37,990 nucleotides of DNA from a bacterium (lineage in GTDB: Bacteria; Zhuqueibacterota; Zhuqueibacteria; Zhuqueibacterales; Geothermadaptataceae). The notes under the pieces are model-generated. The model had not been told where the DNA came from, did no database searches, and saw only the letters and a list, made by a program, of their open reading frames with translations. The DNA lies in NCBI GenBank assembly GCA_024275575.1, contig JAJRYV010000135.1, positions 1 through 37,990 of the forward strand, in the 5' to 3' direction. The position numbers and the translations under genes are program-made. Positions 27,457-35,892 of the stretch are shown in pieces (positions within the stretch are counted from its first letter, which is position 1; each line of letters opens with the position of its first letter).

Positions 27457-28380
27457 TTAAAATGAGTTCCGGGGCATTTTTCTAAACCGTGAAACCCGGG
27501 GAGACCTCAATTTAATGCTACCGGAATACGAAATCGGCCACACCCTTATCTCTTGCTTTGCGGCGTTGAAACCGGCAAAAACACCCAGCCCGTTTGTGAT
27601 ATTATTGTATACAAAAACCGGCTCTGCAAAAGGGTTTTCATACTGGTTTTCAAACTGATGGTATGATTTAAAATATTTATAATATTCCGGGGTTATGCTG
27701 ACAAGATTCACCCACAACGTTGTACCGGTAATGCTCCAGCGCCGTAGCCGGATTTTGAGTGAATATGATTTCCCACTAAACAGGTCATCTGTAAATACCG
27801 TTCCCCATCCCCGTCTAAAAACCAGATCGTCGCTTTCGTATTCATAATATTTCGCATCGATGCTCATTATTTCCTGCGAACTCAGGACGAGCTGGTAATA
27901 ATTACTTTCCTCCGGCGGATCGGTAAAATTAACGGCAATTTCCAGTTCATCAGCTCCGAAAGCCTTGCGAAACCGGCGAGTGGCGATAGACTCAATGGGT
28001 ACGACAGCCGGAACAATACTGCTCGCAGAAACAGATTCATAGCCCGGTGCAGAAACATGAACCGTATACTTTTTTCCCGTCAGGGGCAACAGAGCGCTAA
28101 TGCTGTAATAATATCCATCGAAGTTGCGCGACAGCCGCCATGCCATGCCCCCGGATGAAATTTCAACACGGGCATTTTCAATTGGCTGAATAGCGCTGGT
28201 ATCCAAAATTGCCTTGCTGTGATTCACCCGTACGATCCATTCTGTCTCCGGAGAGAAAAAGCTATTGACGACCAAAACCGGTTTATATGCCGGTAAGTCG
28301 ACATCGACAATCATTTCGCAATTCACAAGAAGCAGCAGGAAAACGGCTGCAATAATGGAGTCTTTCTTTTTAAAAAACAT
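27457..28380 (-). CDS. DUF4249 lipoprotein, partner of the upstream TonB receptor
   Basis: This is a 307-residue lipoprotein with lipobox LLVNC (about C21). The N-terminal half has the DUF4249 pattern: DVDLPAYKPVLVVNSFFSPE, then IENARVEISSGG and GKKYTVHVSAPGYESVSA. DUF4249 proteins occur almost always beside TonB-dependent receptors in Bacteroidota-type genomes and probably form a surface part of a transport complex. Here the receptor gene lies 42 bases upstream on the same strand. The substrate is unknown. Confidence 0.85.
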   Translation of the reverse strand: MFFKKKDSIIAAVFLLLLVNCEMIVDVDLPAYKPVLVVNSFFSPETEWIVRVNHSKAILDTSAIQPIENARVEISSGGMAWRLSRNFDGYYYSISALLPLTGKKYTVHVSAPGYESVSASSIVPAVVPIESIATRRFRKAFGADELEIAVNFTDPPEESNYYQLVLSSQEIMSIDAKYYEYESDDLVFRRGWGTVFTDDLFSGKSYSLKIRLRRWSITGTTLWVNLVSITPEYYKYFKSYHQFENQYENPFAEPVFVYNNITNGLGVFAGFNAAKQEIRVWPISYSGSIKLRSPRVSRFRKMPRNSF

Positions 28381-28422
28381 CGATAATTTTCCATCTTTCC
28401 CGAAGAATGAGATTTTAAATGT

Positions 28423-30789
28423 TTAAAAAGAATAACTGTAACTCAGCGAGGGGATGATCGGAAACAGGCTGGCCTGTTTGACCACCATCATGCCATTTTC
28501 CTCTTCGCTGAAAAAGTAGAAAAAGGGATTTTTACGGTTATAGGCATTATAAGCCCCCAGCGCCCAGATACGTTCGCGACCATTGCCGCGTTTGACAAAG
28601 CGCAACGCCAGATCGAGGCGGTGATAAGCCCGCATACGCGTCCCGTTGCGCTCGGAATAGTATTTGATATCATCGATCTTTTCGCCGAGAAAACTGCGGT
28701 TGTCGATAAATCCACTGTAGTTTGCACCTGGCATGGAAATGCTGTTGCCGGTGCCAAAAACCCAGGTGCCGGAGAGTTCGATGCCGCTGTGGAAGCGGTG
28801 ATTGACGATGAATGACAAATCATGACGGCGGTCGTAGCGATAGGGGAATTTTCGCCCGAAATTGAGCTCCGCAAAGCGGCGATTGCTCCATGACAGGGTA
28901 TATCCCAACCATCCGGTCGTGCGGCCGCGTTTTTTTTGCAGGAAAAACTCAACACCGTATGATTCGCCTTTGCCCGAGGTGATTTTATCTTCCCACAATT
29001 CATCCAGCCCGACAAAATTTGCCCCTTCTTTAAAAGCAGTGAGGTTGGCCATCTCTTTGAAATAACCCTCGATACTGGCTTCCAGTGATTTTTTTTTGAA
29101 AGTATGCGCCAGTCCGAGTGCAACCTGACGGCTTTTTTGTGGTTTGACTTTCGGCGTCGTTGGCACCCATAAATCTGTCGGCAGACCGATGCCGGAATTG
29201 GTGAGCAAATGCACGTATTGTGTCATCGTGGCAAAGGATGCCTTGACCGCCCATCGGCCCATTAAATAGCGAATGGAAAGTCGCGGTTGCAGCGATGAAT
29301 ACAATTTTGAATTGACCGAAAAGCTCGATGCGTGCAGTCCGGCATTTATTTTCAAAAGCGGCGTCAACTCAAGATCATCTTCGATATAAACACTGGATTC
29401 GATGGCATTCTCTTCATGCACCGGTGCAATCAGCGTATCAATATCAACGAAATCCGAGCTTGTTGCTTTAAAATGTGCCGCTCCGGGGCGAAAAGTATGG
29501 CTGATAAAATCGGCGCCGAATTTAACCGCATGCGCCGGATTGGGTAAAAAATCAAAATCGACGGCGGCTGTCAAATCCTCAATCCCTGAAAGATATTTCA
29601 GAAAATAAGATTCGGAAAATGATGATGCGGTGTTCACATTATTTTCAGTATAATCGACATTGAACTGATATTTGCTGTACATCAGTGTTGTGTTGCTGAA
29701 AAGTTTCTGCGAAATGAGCCAGTTCCAGCGCAAAGTCGAAGTGATATTTCCCCACCAGAGATCGTTTTCAAACTTGCGGGTTGCTGTTGCCCAGTTATCT
29801 TCCTGCTGTACATGCGCCTTGTCGAGGCCGGAATAAATACTGAGAAAAAGCCGGTTTTTATCAGAAATTATCGTGTTGAATTTGGCATTGAGATCGCCAA
29901 AATAATAGCCGTTGCCACGCTCGCTCTCTTTTACAAATGGCTGCGCCAGCAAATCGATATAAGTCCGCCGTGCAGACAAAATAAACGACGATTTCCCTTT
30001 TTTAATGGGGCCTTCGATATTAAACCGCGAGGCGACCAGGCCAAGCGTAAATTGCCCATCGAATTCCTGATTATTGCCATCTTTCAAATTGATTTCCATC
30101 ACCGAGGACAAACGGCCGCCGAATCGTGCCGGAAACCCGCCTTTTGTCAGCCTGACATTTTTTATCGCATTGGAATTAAAAACAGAGAAAAAACCGAAGA
30201 GATGGGTTGCATTATAAACCGGAGCGCCGTCGAGCAGAATGAGGTTTTGATCGGGCGCGCCGCCGCGCACGTACATGCCGCTACTGCCCTCGGAGCCCGA
30301 TTGCACGCCGGGCAAAAGCTGCATCGCTTTGATGATGTCGACTTCGCCGAGCAAGGCCGGAATGTGCTGCAATTGATCGATAGGAACATCGATAACGCTC
30401 ATCTGCGATTTTTTTTCGATGGGTTCCAGTATCGCGGTAATCACTTCGACAATTCCGCCTTGCAGGACAGTGGGTGATAACGCGATGGTTATCTGCTGAT
30501 CCTTATTCGCCGGCAATTTTTGCTGCCAAAGGCGATAACCGATATAAGAAGCAGACAATATCAGCGAATCCATTTCACTCACAGGCAAAGTCAGGCTGAA
30601 AAAGCCGTAGTTATTGGTCGCACTGCCGCGGTTCTGATCTTTAACAAAAACGTTAGCGCCGATCAGTTTTTCACCTGTTTTTCGATCTTGCACATAACCA
30701 CTAATGGTAAATTTTTGGGCTGGCAAAGGCGATGAAAAAATGATACTGGTGTAAAATAGAATAACAAGCCGCCGGTTCCCTGAAAACAA
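28423..30789 (-). CDS. TonB-dependent receptor with carboxypeptidase-like N-terminal domain
   Basis: This is a 788-residue outer-membrane receptor. A signal peptide (residues 1-24, ending SSPLPAQ) is followed by a carboxypeptidase-like domain (FTISGYVQDRKTGEKLIGAN...) and a plug. Plug marks are LGEVDIIKAMQLLPGVQSGS, GMYVRGGAPDQNLILLDG and FPARFGGRLSSVMEI. The beta-barrel ends in SLSYSYSF with a C-terminal Phe. The start is a TTG, supported by GGGAGGT 5 bases upstream; no ATG fits. This receptor class pairs with DUF4249 lipoproteins, as here. Its ligand cannot be told from sequence. It is distinct from the haem-type receptor at 20558. Confidence 0.92.
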   Translation of the reverse strand: MFSGNRRLVILFYTSIIFSSPLPAQKFTISGYVQDRKTGEKLIGANVFVKDQNRGSATNNYGFFSLTLPVSEMDSLILSASYIGYRLWQQKLPANKDQQITIALSPTVLQGGIVEVITAILEPIEKKSQMSVIDVPIDQLQHIPALLGEVDIIKAMQLLPGVQSGSEGSSGMYVRGGAPDQNLILLDGAPVYNATHLFGFFSVFNSNAIKNVRLTKGGFPARFGGRLSSVMEINLKDGNNQEFDGQFTLGLVASRFNIEGPIKKGKSSFILSARRTYIDLLAQPFVKESERGNGYYFGDLNAKFNTIISDKNRLFLSIYSGLDKAHVQQEDNWATATRKFENDLWWGNITSTLRWNWLISQKLFSNTTLMYSKYQFNVDYTENNVNTASSFSESYFLKYLSGIEDLTAAVDFDFLPNPAHAVKFGADFISHTFRPGAAHFKATSSDFVDIDTLIAPVHEENAIESSVYIEDDLELTPLLKINAGLHASSFSVNSKLYSSLQPRLSIRYLMGRWAVKASFATMTQYVHLLTNSGIGLPTDLWVPTTPKVKPQKSRQVALGLAHTFKKKSLEASIEGYFKEMANLTAFKEGANFVGLDELWEDKITSGKGESYGVEFFLQKKRGRTTGWLGYTLSWSNRRFAELNFGRKFPYRYDRRHDLSFIVNHRFHSGIELSGTWVFGTGNSISMPGANYSGFIDNRSFLGEKIDDIKYYSERNGTRMRAYHRLDLALRFVKRGNGRERIWALGAYNAYNRKNPFFYFFSEEENGMMVVKQASLFPIIPSLSYSYSF

Positions 30790-30907
30790 CCTGACCTCCC
30801 TGAGAGAAGTGCAAATTCAAAATCACATTAGCCTGTTACAGATTAAGCAATTTAAAATATGTTTTCAACCGGGAAAACGGCAAAAAAATCCCTGATTAAA
30901 TAAATGC

Positions 30908-30942
30908 CAAACCCTCAGGGTTTTTAAAACCTTGAGGGTTTG
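30908..30942 (-). terminator. Long AT/GC palindrome, probable terminator after the TonB-C gene
   Basis: Bases 30908-30924 pair with 30926-30942 around a single-base centre, giving a 17-bp stem with one G-T wobble. It lies 15 bases after the minus-strand stop at 30957. On that strand it is followed by TTTATTTAAT. The same palindrome type (AAACCCTCA/TGAGGGTTT) may be a dispersed repeat in this genome, which cannot be tested here. Confidence 0.65.
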
Positions 30943-30956
30943 CAGCGAACCTAAAA

Positions 30957-31547
30957 CTATTTCAATTTGAATATCACCGGGATGCCGACCCATGTTTCTA
31001 CGGATTTACCGTTCTTTTTTGCCGGAATCCACTCTGTTTCTTTTATTGCGGCAACAGCGGCTTCAGCACAGCCATCGTTTCCAGCGCCAATGTCCTTTAA
31101 AATCTTTGTATTTTTGATTTTCCCATCGGCGCCGAAAAAGACCTGAATGACGATCTCTCCCTCAATCCCTGCCTTGCGGGCAAGCTCAGGATATTTGAGG
31201 TTTTGCTGTACCGATTTGAATCCACCAACCGGCTGAGGCAGTTCATCAAATTCCTGCGATTTGCCGAGGGTAGGTACGCGATAAACCATGCCTGTTTCGG
31301 AATCTGTTTTCAGCGCAATATTAGCGCCCTGGTCGTTCGGTTTGCTCTTGCTCCCACCGTTCAGCCTGAAAATAATCGGGATACCAACCCACACAGCCAC
31401 AGGTTTGTCTTCATATCTGGCCGACTGCCATTTCACTGCGCGCACGGCTGCAATGGCTGCCTCGGCGCAGCCATTGTTGCCCTCACCCAAATCTCTGAGG
31501 ATTCTCACATCTTCAACCTCACCATCCACACCAACGAGCACATTCAA
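30957..31547 (-). pseudogene. TonB C-terminal domain pair, 3' part of a frameshifted M56 peptidase gene
   Basis: This open frame encodes 196 residues: most of one TonB-C domain (VLVGVDGEVEDVRIL... to IIFRLN), a linker, and a full second one (PVGGFKSVQQNLKYPELARK... to IPVIFKLK). It starts inside a domain with no ribosome site and only a TTG or GTG. The missing start of the first TonB-C domain (SPVGGFAAIQENLKYPKIAR) is found, in another frame, at the end of the upstream peptidase gene 3 bases away. This part is therefore almost certainly the C-terminus of a split protein of about 560 residues. It could still be made by re-initiation, but alone it would lack the membrane helices. TonB-C domains at the end of M56 proteins are common in FCB bacteria. 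Confidence 0.82.
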
Positions 31548-31549
31548 AA

Positions 31550-32650
31550 TCAGCCAGCCTTACGAGCAATTTTCGGGTATTTGAGATTTTCCTGGATCGC
31601 GGCAAAACCTCCCACTGGCGACGGGGCTTTGTCAAATTCCACAAACTTTTTGCCGCTTGCAGCCTGATTTTCCTCTGGCGGGGTCAATAATCTTTTGTTG
31701 GAACATTGCCAACTGAGCGGCAGGATCGCCGCACACACGCTTGCCACAACTAAATAATGCCACCAACGCATTTTTTGCACTCCTTTTTTAGAGATTTCAA
31801 AAATGTGACTGAACCGTTTAAAAATCGCCTGAGAGTCTTCTGCAAAATAGATCCCGGAGACCAAAGCAGCAGGTTTTTGTTGATTTTTAAGAATATCGTA
31901 TAAAAACCGGCTGTATTCGGTGGGATGAATGCCGGTCGTACCGATGGCATATTCATCACAGCGTAGCTCGCGCACATGCAGCAAACGGCGGTGCGTGAGC
32001 CACACCAGCGGGTTAAAACCGAACAAAATCAATCCTGCGGTCTGCAGTGCCAAAACCCGGAGATCGTGGTTTTTCAGGTGGGCGATCTCGTGATGCAGCA
32101 TTGATTCGAACTGCGCCGGCAGCCACGACTTGTAATTTGCCGGCAGATAAAGCGCCGGGCGAATGATGCCGGTAAGCAAAGGGGTTTGCAGAAAGTCACT
32201 TGCGAATAAATGGAGGTTATTTATTGAGTTTAGTTGTGTGCAATTTAGTGTGTCGGTTTCGAATGCTTTTGCGCCGGCAAGCTGAAGCCGCAACTTGCGG
32301 TTTTTCAGCCAGAAAATCAGGGCAAAACTGAATGCTGAAAAAAGCCAGATTAAAGCCAGCCAGCTTGCAATGGAGAACGCGGATGTCTGTTGTGTAAAAA
32401 CGGAATTCGTGGATATTGGCGCCAACAAAACCAGACTTTGCTGCGTTATTTGCGCCTGTTGCGGCAATTGCAAAACAGGGGGAATAAAAATCTTGGCCAG
32501 CGCCAGCAGCCAGAGCCAGTAGCGGATTTTTGTATTCAAACGGAAAACAGTATCAACAATCCAGATGAGCGCAATAAACAGAGAAAATTCAAAAACATGG
32601 ACTGCGAAATATTGCAGCCAGACTACAGATAAATTATTGATATAATCCAT
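31550..32650 (-). CDS. M56-family (BlaR1/MecR1-like) membrane metallopeptidase, truncated by frameshift
   Basis: This is a 366-residue sensor-peptidase. N-terminal helices lie at about residues 10-62 and 92-114. The zinc motif HEIAH is at 187-191 (H187, E188, H191), followed by RELRCDEYA (E228) as the third ligand region. A last helix is near 313-333. It probably cleaves or inactivates the BlaI-type repressor encoded 19 bases upstream in response to an envelope signal. The ATG at 32650 has GGAGG 5 bases before it; an in-frame start at 32731 would overlap the BlaI gene. The frame ends just after NLKYPKIARKAG, in the middle of a TonB-C domain whose rest continues in the next frame. Judged by the second TonB-C copy, about 13 bases are missing, so the C-terminal domains are cut off. 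Confidence 0.9.
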   Translation of the reverse strand: MDYINNLSVVWLQYFAVHVFEFSLFIALIWIVDTVFRLNTKIRYWLWLLALAKIFIPPVLQLPQQAQITQQSLVLLAPISTNSVFTQQTSAFSIASWLALIWLFSAFSFALIFWLKNRKLRLQLAGAKAFETDTLNCTQLNSINNLHLFASDFLQTPLLTGIIRPALYLPANYKSWLPAQFESMLHHEIAHLKNHDLRVLALQTAGLILFGFNPLVWLTHRRLLHVRELRCDEYAIGTTGIHPTEYSRFLYDILKNQQKPAALVSGIYFAEDSQAIFKRFSHIFEISKKGVQKMRWWHYLVVASVCAAILPLSWQCSNKRLLTPPEENQAASGKKFVEFDKAPSPVGGFAAIQENLKYPKIARKAG

Positions 32651-32669
32651 ATTGCCTCCAGGGAAAAAA

Positions 32670-33071
32670 CTATTCGTTTTCTCGCTTGCCCTCATTTTTC
32701 TCTTGCTGTTCAATGAGTTGTTTGATCTCATCGAGTTCAGCAGAAGTCAGCTCGCCTGATTTGACAAGATGAGTTGCCAGGGCGCCGAATGAACCGCGAA
32801 AAATACTGGCCACCAGCGAACGGGTTTCATTTTTCATCGCCTGCTCCCGGCTGACGCGGGCGCTATAGAAGTTAACCATACCGATTTTTTGTTTGCGCAG
32901 GAAACTTTTATCGACGAGAATATTCATCATCGTCTGCACGGTCGTGTAGGCTTTTTCACCATTGGGAAAAAGCCGGTTATGCACTTCCCGTACGGTTATG
33001 CGTTTCGGCATTTTCCAGATGCAATCCATCAGTTCACTTTCGGCAGGGGATAGTTTTTTGATTTTCTTCAA
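32670..33071 (-). CDS. BlaI/MecI/CopY-family repressor
   Basis: This is a 133-residue dimeric winged-helix repressor. LSPAESELMDCIWKMPKRIT and VREVHNRLFPNGEKAYTTVQ (about residues 7-46), then MMNILVDKSFL with the wing at KIGMVNFYSARVS, match the BlaI DNA-binding domain. The C-terminal helices (SFGALATHLVKSGELTSAEL) form the dimer part that M56 peptidases cut. The start is a TTG with AGGAGAG 6 bases upstream. It is directly followed by the M56 peptidase gene. The pair usually controls its own operon; no beta-lactamase is nearby, so the regulated genes are unknown. Confidence 0.92.
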   Translation of the reverse strand: MKKIKKLSPAESELMDCIWKMPKRITVREVHNRLFPNGEKAYTTVQTMMNILVDKSFLRKQKIGMVNFYSARVSREQAMKNETRSLVASIFRGSFGALATHLVKSGELTSAELDEIKQLIEQQEKNEGKRENE

Positions 33072-33502
33072 GAATCACTCTCCTGATAAATTCAAAGCAT
33101 AACTCTAAATTCAGGTATTTTTAGCGCTATTTTTTCAAACAAATCTATGCGCAAGATGGTAAATTTTAAAATATGACTCCCGATCTTTAGGTCAATTAAA
33201 AAAATAGTCACACAACTAAACTATTAGTAGTATAAAATCATTTTTCACGAATGCAAGTAAATTCGCTAAAAATCGCAAGTTTGTGTTCAAAATAATCGAA
33301 TAATCCAGTTTGGTTTATAACCGCAAGCCGTGTGACAAAGATGATGGAGGAAAGGAACAGGATTGCACCGGATAGTGCGGCGGCCGCGGCAGGTTTAATT
33401 CTTATTCTGAAAAAATTCCGGCGCATTGAGGCCAATTTACTGACAGCGCCGGAATTTTGACAAAATCCATTTTGTTGATTTTGCAGCCGGGGAGTGTAAG
33501 GA
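33072..33502. other. AT-rich region between the BlaI gene and the haemerythrin gene
   Basis: This 431-base gap must hold the blaI promoter. ACTATTAGT (33220-33228) is a small palindrome that might be a BlaI half-site pair. ACAAAAT (33460-33466) and ATTTTGT (33469-33475) form a 7-bp repeat after the haemerythrin stop. A minus-strand frame of 96 codons at 33238-33528 includes a hydrophobic stretch (residues ~47-70), but it overlaps the haemerythrin end and has no good start, so I do not call it a gene. Confidence 0.45.
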
Positions 33503-33910
33503 TCAGGCGTTTGCTGTTTTTTTAACACAAAATTTCAAATGCACATCAACGCCGCAAATGTGTTTTACCAGCCAAGCTTCCGCTGTTTTATGTAATTCCT
33601 TGGCCAGTTCATCACTATAGCCTTCGGTACGAAAACGCTCGGCAAATTGTGAATAGGTTTGCAAAAAAGATGTGTGCGCCTGAACGTTTTTCGCAGCCAC
33701 GGGACATTTCATTTCTTCCATACATTTTTCTTCGAAGTTGAAGTGCGTCTTGACATAATCACCGAGAAACGAGAGTGTCTCATGGATTGTGCTTTCAGCC
33801 TTTTTCTCGCGAATAGACTTGTCAAATGCATTGATCATATCAAAGAGTTTCTTATGCTGATTGTCAACTTCCCGCACCCCGGTTTCATACATGCTGTTCC
33901 ATTGTAACAT
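33503..33910 (-). CDS. Bacteriohaemerythrin
   Basis: This 135-residue four-helix protein has a di-iron O2-binding site and may store, carry or sense O2. Ligands: H19 (DNQHKKLFD), H56 and E60 (THFNFEE), H79 (AHTSFL), H117 and D122 (KHICGVDVHL). The residue at the place of one further His (four before H79) is N75. This matches a bacterial subgroup with a CPxAxxNxxAHxxF pattern. The site therefore has one His fewer than classic haemerythrin. GAGGAG precedes the ATG. It is a single gene. It could support an organism living near oxic-anoxic boundaries, in line with the O2-tolerant hydrogenase. Confidence 0.9.
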   Translation of the reverse strand: MLQWNSMYETGVREVDNQHKKLFDMINAFDKSIREKKAESTIHETLSFLGDYVKTHFNFEEKCMEEMKCPVAAKNVQAHTSFLQTYSQFAERFRTEGYSDELAKELHKTAEAWLVKHICGVDVHLKFCVKKTANA

Positions 33911-34154
33911 GGCGGCTCCTCAAACAAGTTAGTTATAATGATAGCGACGTAATTCTAATTCGGCATATAAAAATTGATCATCACATTTCTACAGATTTTT
34001 CACATCGGTTAGCCGGTTAGCGCAAAATGCGGGAATTCCAATGTTGCGTTTTTGCAAAAAAATTATAGTTTCGATCTGTTGCTCTGCTCAAATCCGGCAA
34101 AACGGCAGGGTTAGTTGCGCAAATCCACATGACCTTTCAACGAAAGGATGATAA

Positions 34155-35792
34155 ATGAATTTTTCAGCAATCGATTATGGCGTATTTTTCGGATACATCA
34201 TTTTTATCGTCGGTCTCGGACTCTGGGTTTCGCGGGAGAAAAAAGGCCATGTAAAGGATTCAAAAGATTATTTTCTCGCCGGCAAGGCGCTGCCCTGGTG
34301 GGCGGTGGGTTCATCGCTGATCGCAGCGAATATTTCCGCCGAACAATTCATCGGAATGTCCGGCTCCGGATTTGCCGGCGGTTTAGCCATCGCCTCCTAC
34401 GAATGGATGGCGGCGATCACCCTGCTCATCGTCGGTAAATTTTTCCTGCCGATTTTCATCGAAAAAGAACTCTACACCATTCCGCAATTTATCGAAAAAC
34501 GCTTCAGCACCAATCTGAAAACCATACTCGCCGTTTTTTGGGTTGCCCTGTTCATTTTCGTCAATTTAACTTCTGTGCTGTTTCTCGGCGGTAAAGCGAT
34601 CGATACCATCATCGGTGTCGGTGACGGCAGTATTTTGATGTATGCCGTCCTCGGGCTGGCGTTTATCGCTGCGGCATATTCGTTATATGGCGGGCTGGCG
34701 GCAGTGGCCTGGACCGATGTCGTGCAGGTCGTACTGCTGATTCTCGGCGGTTTGATTACTTCATTCATCGCGCTGAACCATGTCACACCGGAGGGTGGTG
34801 TTTTTAACGGATTAAGCCATATTTACAACGTAGCCGGCGATAAATTTCACATGGTATTAACCCGGGATAATCCTGAATTTAACAACCTGCCGGGCATTGC
34901 CGTGCTCATCGGAGGGATGTGGGTGGCCAATCTTTACTACTGGGGATTTAACCAATACATCATTCAGCGCACTTTAGCGGCAAAATCTCTCGCTGAAGCG
35001 CAAAAAGGTATTGCCCTCGCAGCTTTCCTTAAAATGATTATTCCACTGATTGTCGTCATTCCGGGCATCGTGGCTTTTGTGCTTTATGCACAACCTGAAG
35101 GCACAGCAATTATCGACGGGGTGAAAGAAGCATTCACAAAAGCAGACGGCACGCTGAATAACGATAAAGCTTATCCCTGGCTCATCAGCGTTTTTATTCC
35201 CACCGGCCTGCAAGGACTGGTGCTCGCTGCTCTTACCGCCGCCATCGTTTCCTCGCTCGCTTCGATGCTCAATTCGACTTCGACCATTTTTACGATGGAT
35301 ATTTATAAACCTTTCGTCAACAAAGACGCCTCTGAACAAAACCTGGTTACCGTCGCCCGAATTACCGCTGCTATCGCCCTGCTCATCGCCATTCTGATGA
35401 CTCCGGTAATGAGCAATATCCCGCAGATGTTCCAGTACATTCAGGAATACACCGGTCTGGTGAGCCCGGGTATTCTCGGCGTTTTTTTAATGGGGCTGTT
35501 CTGGAAAAAAACCACCAACAAAGCGGCCATTGTCGGGGTGCTGTGCTCCATCCTCACCGCCTTCTTTTTAAAGGCCTCCATCGTTGATCTGCCGTTCCTC
35601 GACCAAATGTTTTATACCCTGACAATCACCATGGTGATTATCGCCGGCGTGAGCATGACCACGTCTGTGACCGACGACGATCCCAAAGGTATCCCGTTAA
35701 CCGCAAAAACATTGTATACGGAATCCGTATTTAATATCTCCGCCTATATCATTTTGCTGATTGCGGCCATGCTCTACACCGTTTTCTGGTAG
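34155..35792 (+). CDS. Na+/sugar symporter of the SSS family, close to Vibrio SGLT
   Basis: This is a 545-residue inner-membrane transporter with about 13-14 helices. The sequence is strikingly close to vSGLT (Na+/galactose) over its length: LPWWAVGSSLIAANISAEQF, SYEWMAAITL, GFNQYIIQRTLAAKSLAEAQ, ASMLNSTSTIFTMDIYK, IQEYTGLVSPGILGVF. The sugar-contacting residues known from vSGLT appear kept: Q64 (SAEQF), E83 (SYEW), the Asn and gate Tyr of GFNQY, and the Gln of IQEYTG. Galactose or glucose are thus the likely substrates. AAGGATG lies just before the ATG. It is a single gene with no sugar enzymes beside it. A weak hairpin with a following T-run (about 35821-35857) may end it. Confidence 0.92.
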   Translation: MNFSAIDYGVFFGYIIFIVGLGLWVSREKKGHVKDSKDYFLAGKALPWWAVGSSLIAANISAEQFIGMSGSGFAGGLAIASYEWMAAITLLIVGKFFLPIFIEKELYTIPQFIEKRFSTNLKTILAVFWVALFIFVNLTSVLFLGGKAIDTIIGVGDGSILMYAVLGLAFIAAAYSLYGGLAAVAWTDVVQVVLLILGGLITSFIALNHVTPEGGVFNGLSHIYNVAGDKFHMVLTRDNPEFNNLPGIAVLIGGMWVANLYYWGFNQYIIQRTLAAKSLAEAQKGIALAAFLKMIIPLIVVIPGIVAFVLYAQPEGTAIIDGVKEAFTKADGTLNNDKAYPWLISVFIPTGLQGLVLAALTAAIVSSLASMLNSTSTIFTMDIYKPFVNKDASEQNLVTVARITAAIALLIAILMTPVMSNIPQMFQYIQEYTGLVSPGILGVFLMGLFWKKTTNKAAIVGVLCSILTAFFLKASIVDLPFLDQMFYTLTITMVIIAGVSMTTSVTDDDPKGIPLTAKTLYTESVFNISAYIILLIAAMLYTVFW

Positions 35793-35892
35793 AATTTCCC
35801 GATATGAGGTGGATTGCTCAGCATCCGCCTGATGCGCTGAACGAGATACTTTTTTTCGGCGCCACTGCGGCTCGAGAATAAAAAAGGTTAGA

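Follow-up and report, generated by a model that had tools for sequence, protein, structure and literature searches.

A truncated M56 receptor gene and its intact relative

The gene for an M56 (BlaR1-type) protease in the window (the whole 37,990-nucleotide stretch analysed here) is broken within its C-terminal tail. The M56 frame (minus strand, 31550..32650; PF05569, 3.5e-23) runs from an ATG at 32650 to a TGA at 31550 (366 codons plus stop), contains the zinc motif HEXXH in the form HEIAH, and is cut off inside the first TonB_C repeat, ending ...NLKYPKIARKAG. The remainder of the tail is out of frame with it (minus strand, 30957..31547; 196 aa with two TonB_C stretches, PF03544 2.2e-26) and is still open over 196 codons; the Pfam matches to TonB_C in the window are at 31362-31559 and 30963-31202. 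A BlaI-type repressor gene is located upstream of the M56 gene (minus strand, 32670..33071; PF03965 1.3e-28), and a TonB-dependent receptor gene (minus strand, 28423..30789; PF07715 and PF13715) adjoins the module both here and in G001, a genome of the same genus. With one query protein, these two were the only ones of the compared loci in which such a receptor was found beside the module. A DUF4249 protein is encoded next to the receptor gene on the same strand (27457-28380).

The G001 ortholog (L004) is one uninterrupted frame (564 codons, stop to stop) with 72% aa identity to the window gene (262/366 residues before the break and 104/183 aligned residues after it), and the two genomes are collinear over window positions 27893-35796. 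In the DNA alignment of the orthologs, the window lacks 13 nt between 31553 and 31552 (minus strand). The sequence-only reading had proposed that a gene of about 560 codons is broken inside the first TonB_C repeat through the loss of about 13 bases, and the alignment agrees with it on the position of the break, its size, and the length of the intact gene. Its further suggestion of a phase-variable event finds no support, as there is by eye no tandem run beyond a short GGCTGGCTG, and the G001 frame is unbroken. A programmed frameshift at the break was set aside, since G001 needs none. No further split genes were noticed by eye in the ORF list for the window.

As regards the break only, it is a serious possibility, although we put it somewhat below an even chance, that the 13 missing nt reflect an error of consensus or assembly, the organism itself carrying an unbroken gene; the alternative, raised in the sequence-only reading, would be a real recent deletion. 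The assembly is of a metagenome type, in 144 contigs, and the 196 open codons downstream with recognisable TonB_C repeats fit such an error; however, a loss of 13 nt is no single-base error, and the M56 TonB-repeat tails of two genomes of another genus, G020 and G025, also look frame-broken. In the G020 gene (L254) the later TonB repeats fall in other frames, and the G025 gene (L253) has a frame that stops within the second repeat at a place where that of G015 (L252) runs on. There are six more TonB_C matches elsewhere in the window's genome, and these may stand in for any lost TonB function.

A candidate start site before the last M56 helix

Within the M56 frame, 0.2 kb upstream of the break, there is an in-frame ATG (minus strand, 31769..31771) immediately ahead of the final hydrophobic segment of the M56 part, preceded by the Shine-Dalgarno sequence AAGGAG (minus strand, 31780..31785); the predicted start site has the form AAGGAG-N8-ATG (31785-31769) and lies within AAAAAAGGAGTGCAAAAAATG. 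Around it is an 84-nt block (minus strand, 31745..31828) that is identical to G001 in the DNA alignment and is the longest exact run between the two from 33230 to 30957 (the next longest are 37 and 35 nt), whereas the M56 genes as a whole are 74% identical. At residues shared by the window and G001 proteins the same codon is used in 18/18 cases near the site compared with 122/210 elsewhere. In other gene pairs the picture varies, codon conservation being higher near the site in many and not in some; the L020/L016 pair, for example, uses the same codon at 5/12 positions near the site and at 70/160 elsewhere.

Initiation at the internal ATG would give a short product (minus strand, 31550..31771) that is 73 aa long in the window, after the break, and 262 aa long in G001, where it includes two TonB_C domains (PF03544 1.2e-39; TIGR01352). 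Because the predicted start of the tail is upstream of the break, the break shortens two predicted products, of 366 aa and 73 aa, and neither would be expected to retain a TonB_C fold. The earlier proposal that the break frees the peptidase from its TonB_C tail overlooked the tail's own predicted start.

A PF05569 profile search (E <= 1e-15) identified M56 genes in 55 of 82 genomes of the window's phylum. The 101 unique M56 ORFs, read stop to stop, form 93 clusters at 80% identity, and 90 of these were evaluated, with three left out of the count that either have no HEXXH or end before the site. Among the 38 TonB-tailed genes, which include those of the window and G001, 32 have an ATG located 98-110 codons after the HEXXH, and every one of these 32 ATGs has an exact Shine-Dalgarno match of at least 5 nt at a usable spacing. 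In one other gene, L102, the script had anchored on another HEXXH, and its inclusion brings the count to 33/38; the TonB-tailed genes lacking the site are L005, L007, L022, L086 and L100. Among the other ATGs of these genes, 24/1056 in frame and 36/1583 out of frame score equally high, as do 29/1519 ATGs in 208 other ORFs (3/98 where a transmembrane segment follows). Other ATGs that precede a transmembrane segment in the M56 genes also reach at least 5 nt in 11/93 cases, and some of these may be genuine gene starts because the ORFs were read stop to stop. A canonical internal Shine-Dalgarno sequence with an ATG is general in the phylum and occupies an equivalent position in most of its TonB-tailed M56 genes.

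The site is not restricted to genes with TonB tails. A Pfam scan of ten further M56 proteins reveals six with M23 peptidase tails and one with an ExbD tail, and a second ExbD match, in L091 (G075), which has the internal start, falls just under the Pfam cut-off. When tail classes are assigned to the 90 genes with models built from the scanned proteins, the site is present in 33/38 TonB-tailed genes, 2/2 ExbD-tailed genes (the very two from which the ExbD model was built), 12/20 M23-tailed genes, and 1/30 with other or unrecognised tails; the comparison of TonB, ExbD or M23 tails with the others (46/60, with TonB taken as 32/38, versus 1/30) gives a Fisher probability of 1e-11. Eight of the 20 M23-tailed genes are without a 5-nt match, and three of these have a 4-nt match. 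TonB, ExbD and M23 proteins also occur as anchored periplasmic proteins in their own right, and a product made from the internal ATG could therefore be complete. By hydropathy only, there is a strong hydrophobic window within 24 aa of the start at 33/47 sites. We also note that L093 (G046) is an M56 protease gene with an ExbD-like tail and an internal start. Among M56 genes whose tails were not recognised, only L094 (G030) has an internal start; the tail in this case may be a further effector able to stand alone.

The genes flanking the M56 frames differ between loci with and without the site. Loci were counted where at least 1 kb of upstream sequence was available, which left out 3/34 site-bearing loci and 1/6 site-lacking loci (L225, with only 651 bases upstream of the M56 frame). 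All five of the remaining site-lacking, TonB-tailed loci (L220-L224) have, next to the blaI-type gene and in the same orientation, a separate tonB gene with a clear Shine-Dalgarno sequence, compared with 1/31 site-bearing loci (L240; Fisher 1.6e-5). When placed on the M56 tree the label needs four changes, two of them forced, and the five loci amount to some two lineages (the families f1 and f6), so this complementarity weighs less than its p-value suggests. A BlaI-like ORF lies beside most of the compared loci. There is no clear separate M23 gene in the flanks of the five M23-tailed loci that are without any match. The M23-tailed loci showed no such partner except at L263 (G075), where an M56-M23 gene is followed by a second M23 frame with an overlap of about 30 bases.

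A two-product reading and its alternatives

We propose, with a probability of roughly three in four (about 0.77) judged from sequence comparisons, that internal initiation in the M56 receptor gene makes a functional short product, a free form of the tail protein. The gene would encode a BlaR1-type receptor, comprising a membrane M56 metalloprotease and a periplasmic TonB_C tail, that is paired with a BlaI-type repressor, and ribosomes would also start at a second in-frame site just before the last helix. The short product, made up of the last helix, a linker and the tail, would amount to a minimal TonB, ExbD or M23 peptidase anchored in the membrane, such that a single gene would yield a sensor-protease and a free effector in a linked ratio. 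For the TonB types, the free form would perhaps work on receptors of the outer membrane, and the full-length form may use its TonB tail to report engagement to the protease, which would inactivate BlaI; these signalling details are held less surely than internal initiation itself.

Several features of the DNA bear on whether the signal is selected as such. Permutation of synonymous codons within genes gives an expected 10.1 matches of at least 5 nt (maximum 17 in 500) compared with the 32 observed; for matches of at least 6 nt in the TonB-tailed genes the expectation is 3.5 (maximum 9) versus 22 observed, and for other M56 genes with an ATG at this place it is 5.2 (maximum 11) versus 15/25. 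At 47 sites the RNA from -25 to +35 shows less structure than the remainder of its gene (mean z +1.10, with 96% above 0), whereas 460 other ATGs average a z of -0.05; the p-value of 2e-14 is indicative only because the sequences are related, and in the window itself the site shows no such reduction (z 0.00).

The internal Shine-Dalgarno sequence and ATG could instead be a relic of an old fusion of a tonB, exbD or M23 gene with an M56 gene, unused now, and the closeness of the site to the M56/tail junction and the occurrence of such tails elsewhere as separate genes would both fit this. We regard it as unlikely, since an unused signal should decay, yet the 32 ATGs all keep it among genes that share about 30% of their residues; moreover, the synonymous shuffles, the low RNA structure and the either/or relationship with a separate tonB gene all point to present use. 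It is still less probable that the constraint is on the protein, with a charged motif of the K-E-x-x-M type before the helix that happens to be encoded by AAGGAG...ATG. K-E-x-x-M is indeed common in one clade, but the same DNA signal is present in two codon phases and the residues vary, with K-E-x-x-M, Q-E-x-x-M, M-E-x-x-M and G-E-x-x-M among them and K-K-G-V-Q-K-M in the window, and synonymous shuffling falls well short of the observed number of matches. We give least credence to a role in pausing, in which a Shine-Dalgarno-like sequence slows ribosomes for insertion of the last helix and the ATG is incidental, for although the motif lies just upstream of a transmembrane segment, M56 genes with other tails have this helix too, yet the motif without a spaced ATG is found at this place in only 6/29 of them compared with 293/2171 same-length stretches elsewhere, and this near lack of enrichment speaks against it.

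The two-product reading can be compared with several known systems. The module resembles BlaR1/MecR1 with BlaI/MecI in having an M56 domain with HEXXH, a repressor gene directly upstream, and a C-terminal periplasmic domain, but differs in its tail, which is TonB_C, ExbD or M23 rather than a penicillin-binding sensor, and in a predicted internal start that precedes the last helix; the window protein, with its TonB_C tail, has no penicillin-binding sensor and scores far under the cut-offs of the NCBIfam BlaR1 models. BlaR1 signalling is summarised in the available extract of PMC7593790. The predicted short product is similar to TonB energy transducers, with an N-terminal hydrophobic anchor, a linker and TonB_C, but would be encoded within another gene, and has two TonB_C repeats in G001; any contact with a motor is putative. 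The motor-contact motif in the TonB anchor is given as S-x-H-x-L-x-S in the extract of PMC12204202; by eye the G001 anchor has the H-x-L and lacks the serines. The closest precedent, from the extract of PMC9430671, is that of phage endolysins in which two polypeptides have been shown experimentally to come from single genes; those are lysis enzymes with experimental support, whereas here the protein is a bacterial membrane receptor and the case is built from sequence. A review of M23 hydrolases (PMC9662197) notes proteins that combine M23 with M56, the domain pair described here, with no mention of an internal start in the extract available. We found no description of an internal start in M56 genes, or of M56-TonB receptors, in the accessible portions of the open-licence literature, nor anything in the open-licence literature on what M56-TonB receptors sense; the extracts of PMC12204202, PMC12578637, PMC10470040 and PMC6807378 have no bearing on M56 internal starts.

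More tentatively, and at somewhat less than even odds, M56 receptor genes may in general be built for two products. Where the tail acts as a periplasmic effector in its own right (TonB, ExbD, M23, and perhaps Clostridia lipoproteins), an internal start would add a free copy to the receptor, and sensing would then compete with the sensed activity or be calibrated against it. If the two-product reading is correct, then one class of membrane-protease receptors outside of the beta-lactam pathway has a second product that annotation has missed, a free effector (TonB, ExbD or M23) is tied to its own sensor by a single mRNA, and there is a testable model of what the M56-TonB receptors sense. A single truncation in a gene of this kind could then affect two proteins.

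Related loci and possible operators

Eight TonB-tailed M56 genes are from outside the phylum or bear the title of another, and in only three of these (L114, L200 and L204) is the site found in the same position. L114 is from Krumholzibacteriia by title and its TonB tail is confirmed by Pfam, which also confirms TonB tails in L256 and L257, containing the L200 and L204 genes. Two others of the eight, L213 and L215, have a similar signal 10-12 codons earlier, and there is no such signal in L124, L131 or L212. L121, from Calditrichia by title, is an M23-tailed gene with the site. The one beta-lactam BlaR1 gene compared, from Metabacillus (L169), lacks an ATG over the region scanned, and the Spirosoma M56 gene L168 has a 4-nt match only. 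The phyla of G159 and G332, represented by one and three examined genomes respectively, yielded no new gene, and plasmid records contain few M56 homologs. In L132, L149 and L151 (by title Clostridiales, Herbinix and Anaerocolumna) there is an AGGAG-type Shine-Dalgarno sequence and ATG before the last M56 helix, and the sequence from that ATG resembles by eye a lipoprotein signal peptide ending in L-T-G-C; these genes may follow the same plan and yield a lipoprotein.

Upstream of the blaI-type gene the window has 37 nt identical to G001 (minus strand, 33194..33230), and this block is a probable promoter/operator. Comparison of the sequence upstream of blaI with the M56 gene at 59 loci speaks against a general intragenic operator: apart from those of the window and G001, a match of more than 12 nt is seen at L239 only (17 nt, of different sequence, in tandem modules). 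In the window, the 14-mer AGTTTAGTTGTGTG is present at 33209-33222 (minus strand), inside the 37-nt block, and again in inverted orientation at 32227-32240 (plus strand), inside the M56 coding sequence. These are exactly two copies, without mismatch, in the 4.96-Mb genome, both are also present in G001, and the pair are possibly BlaI operators.
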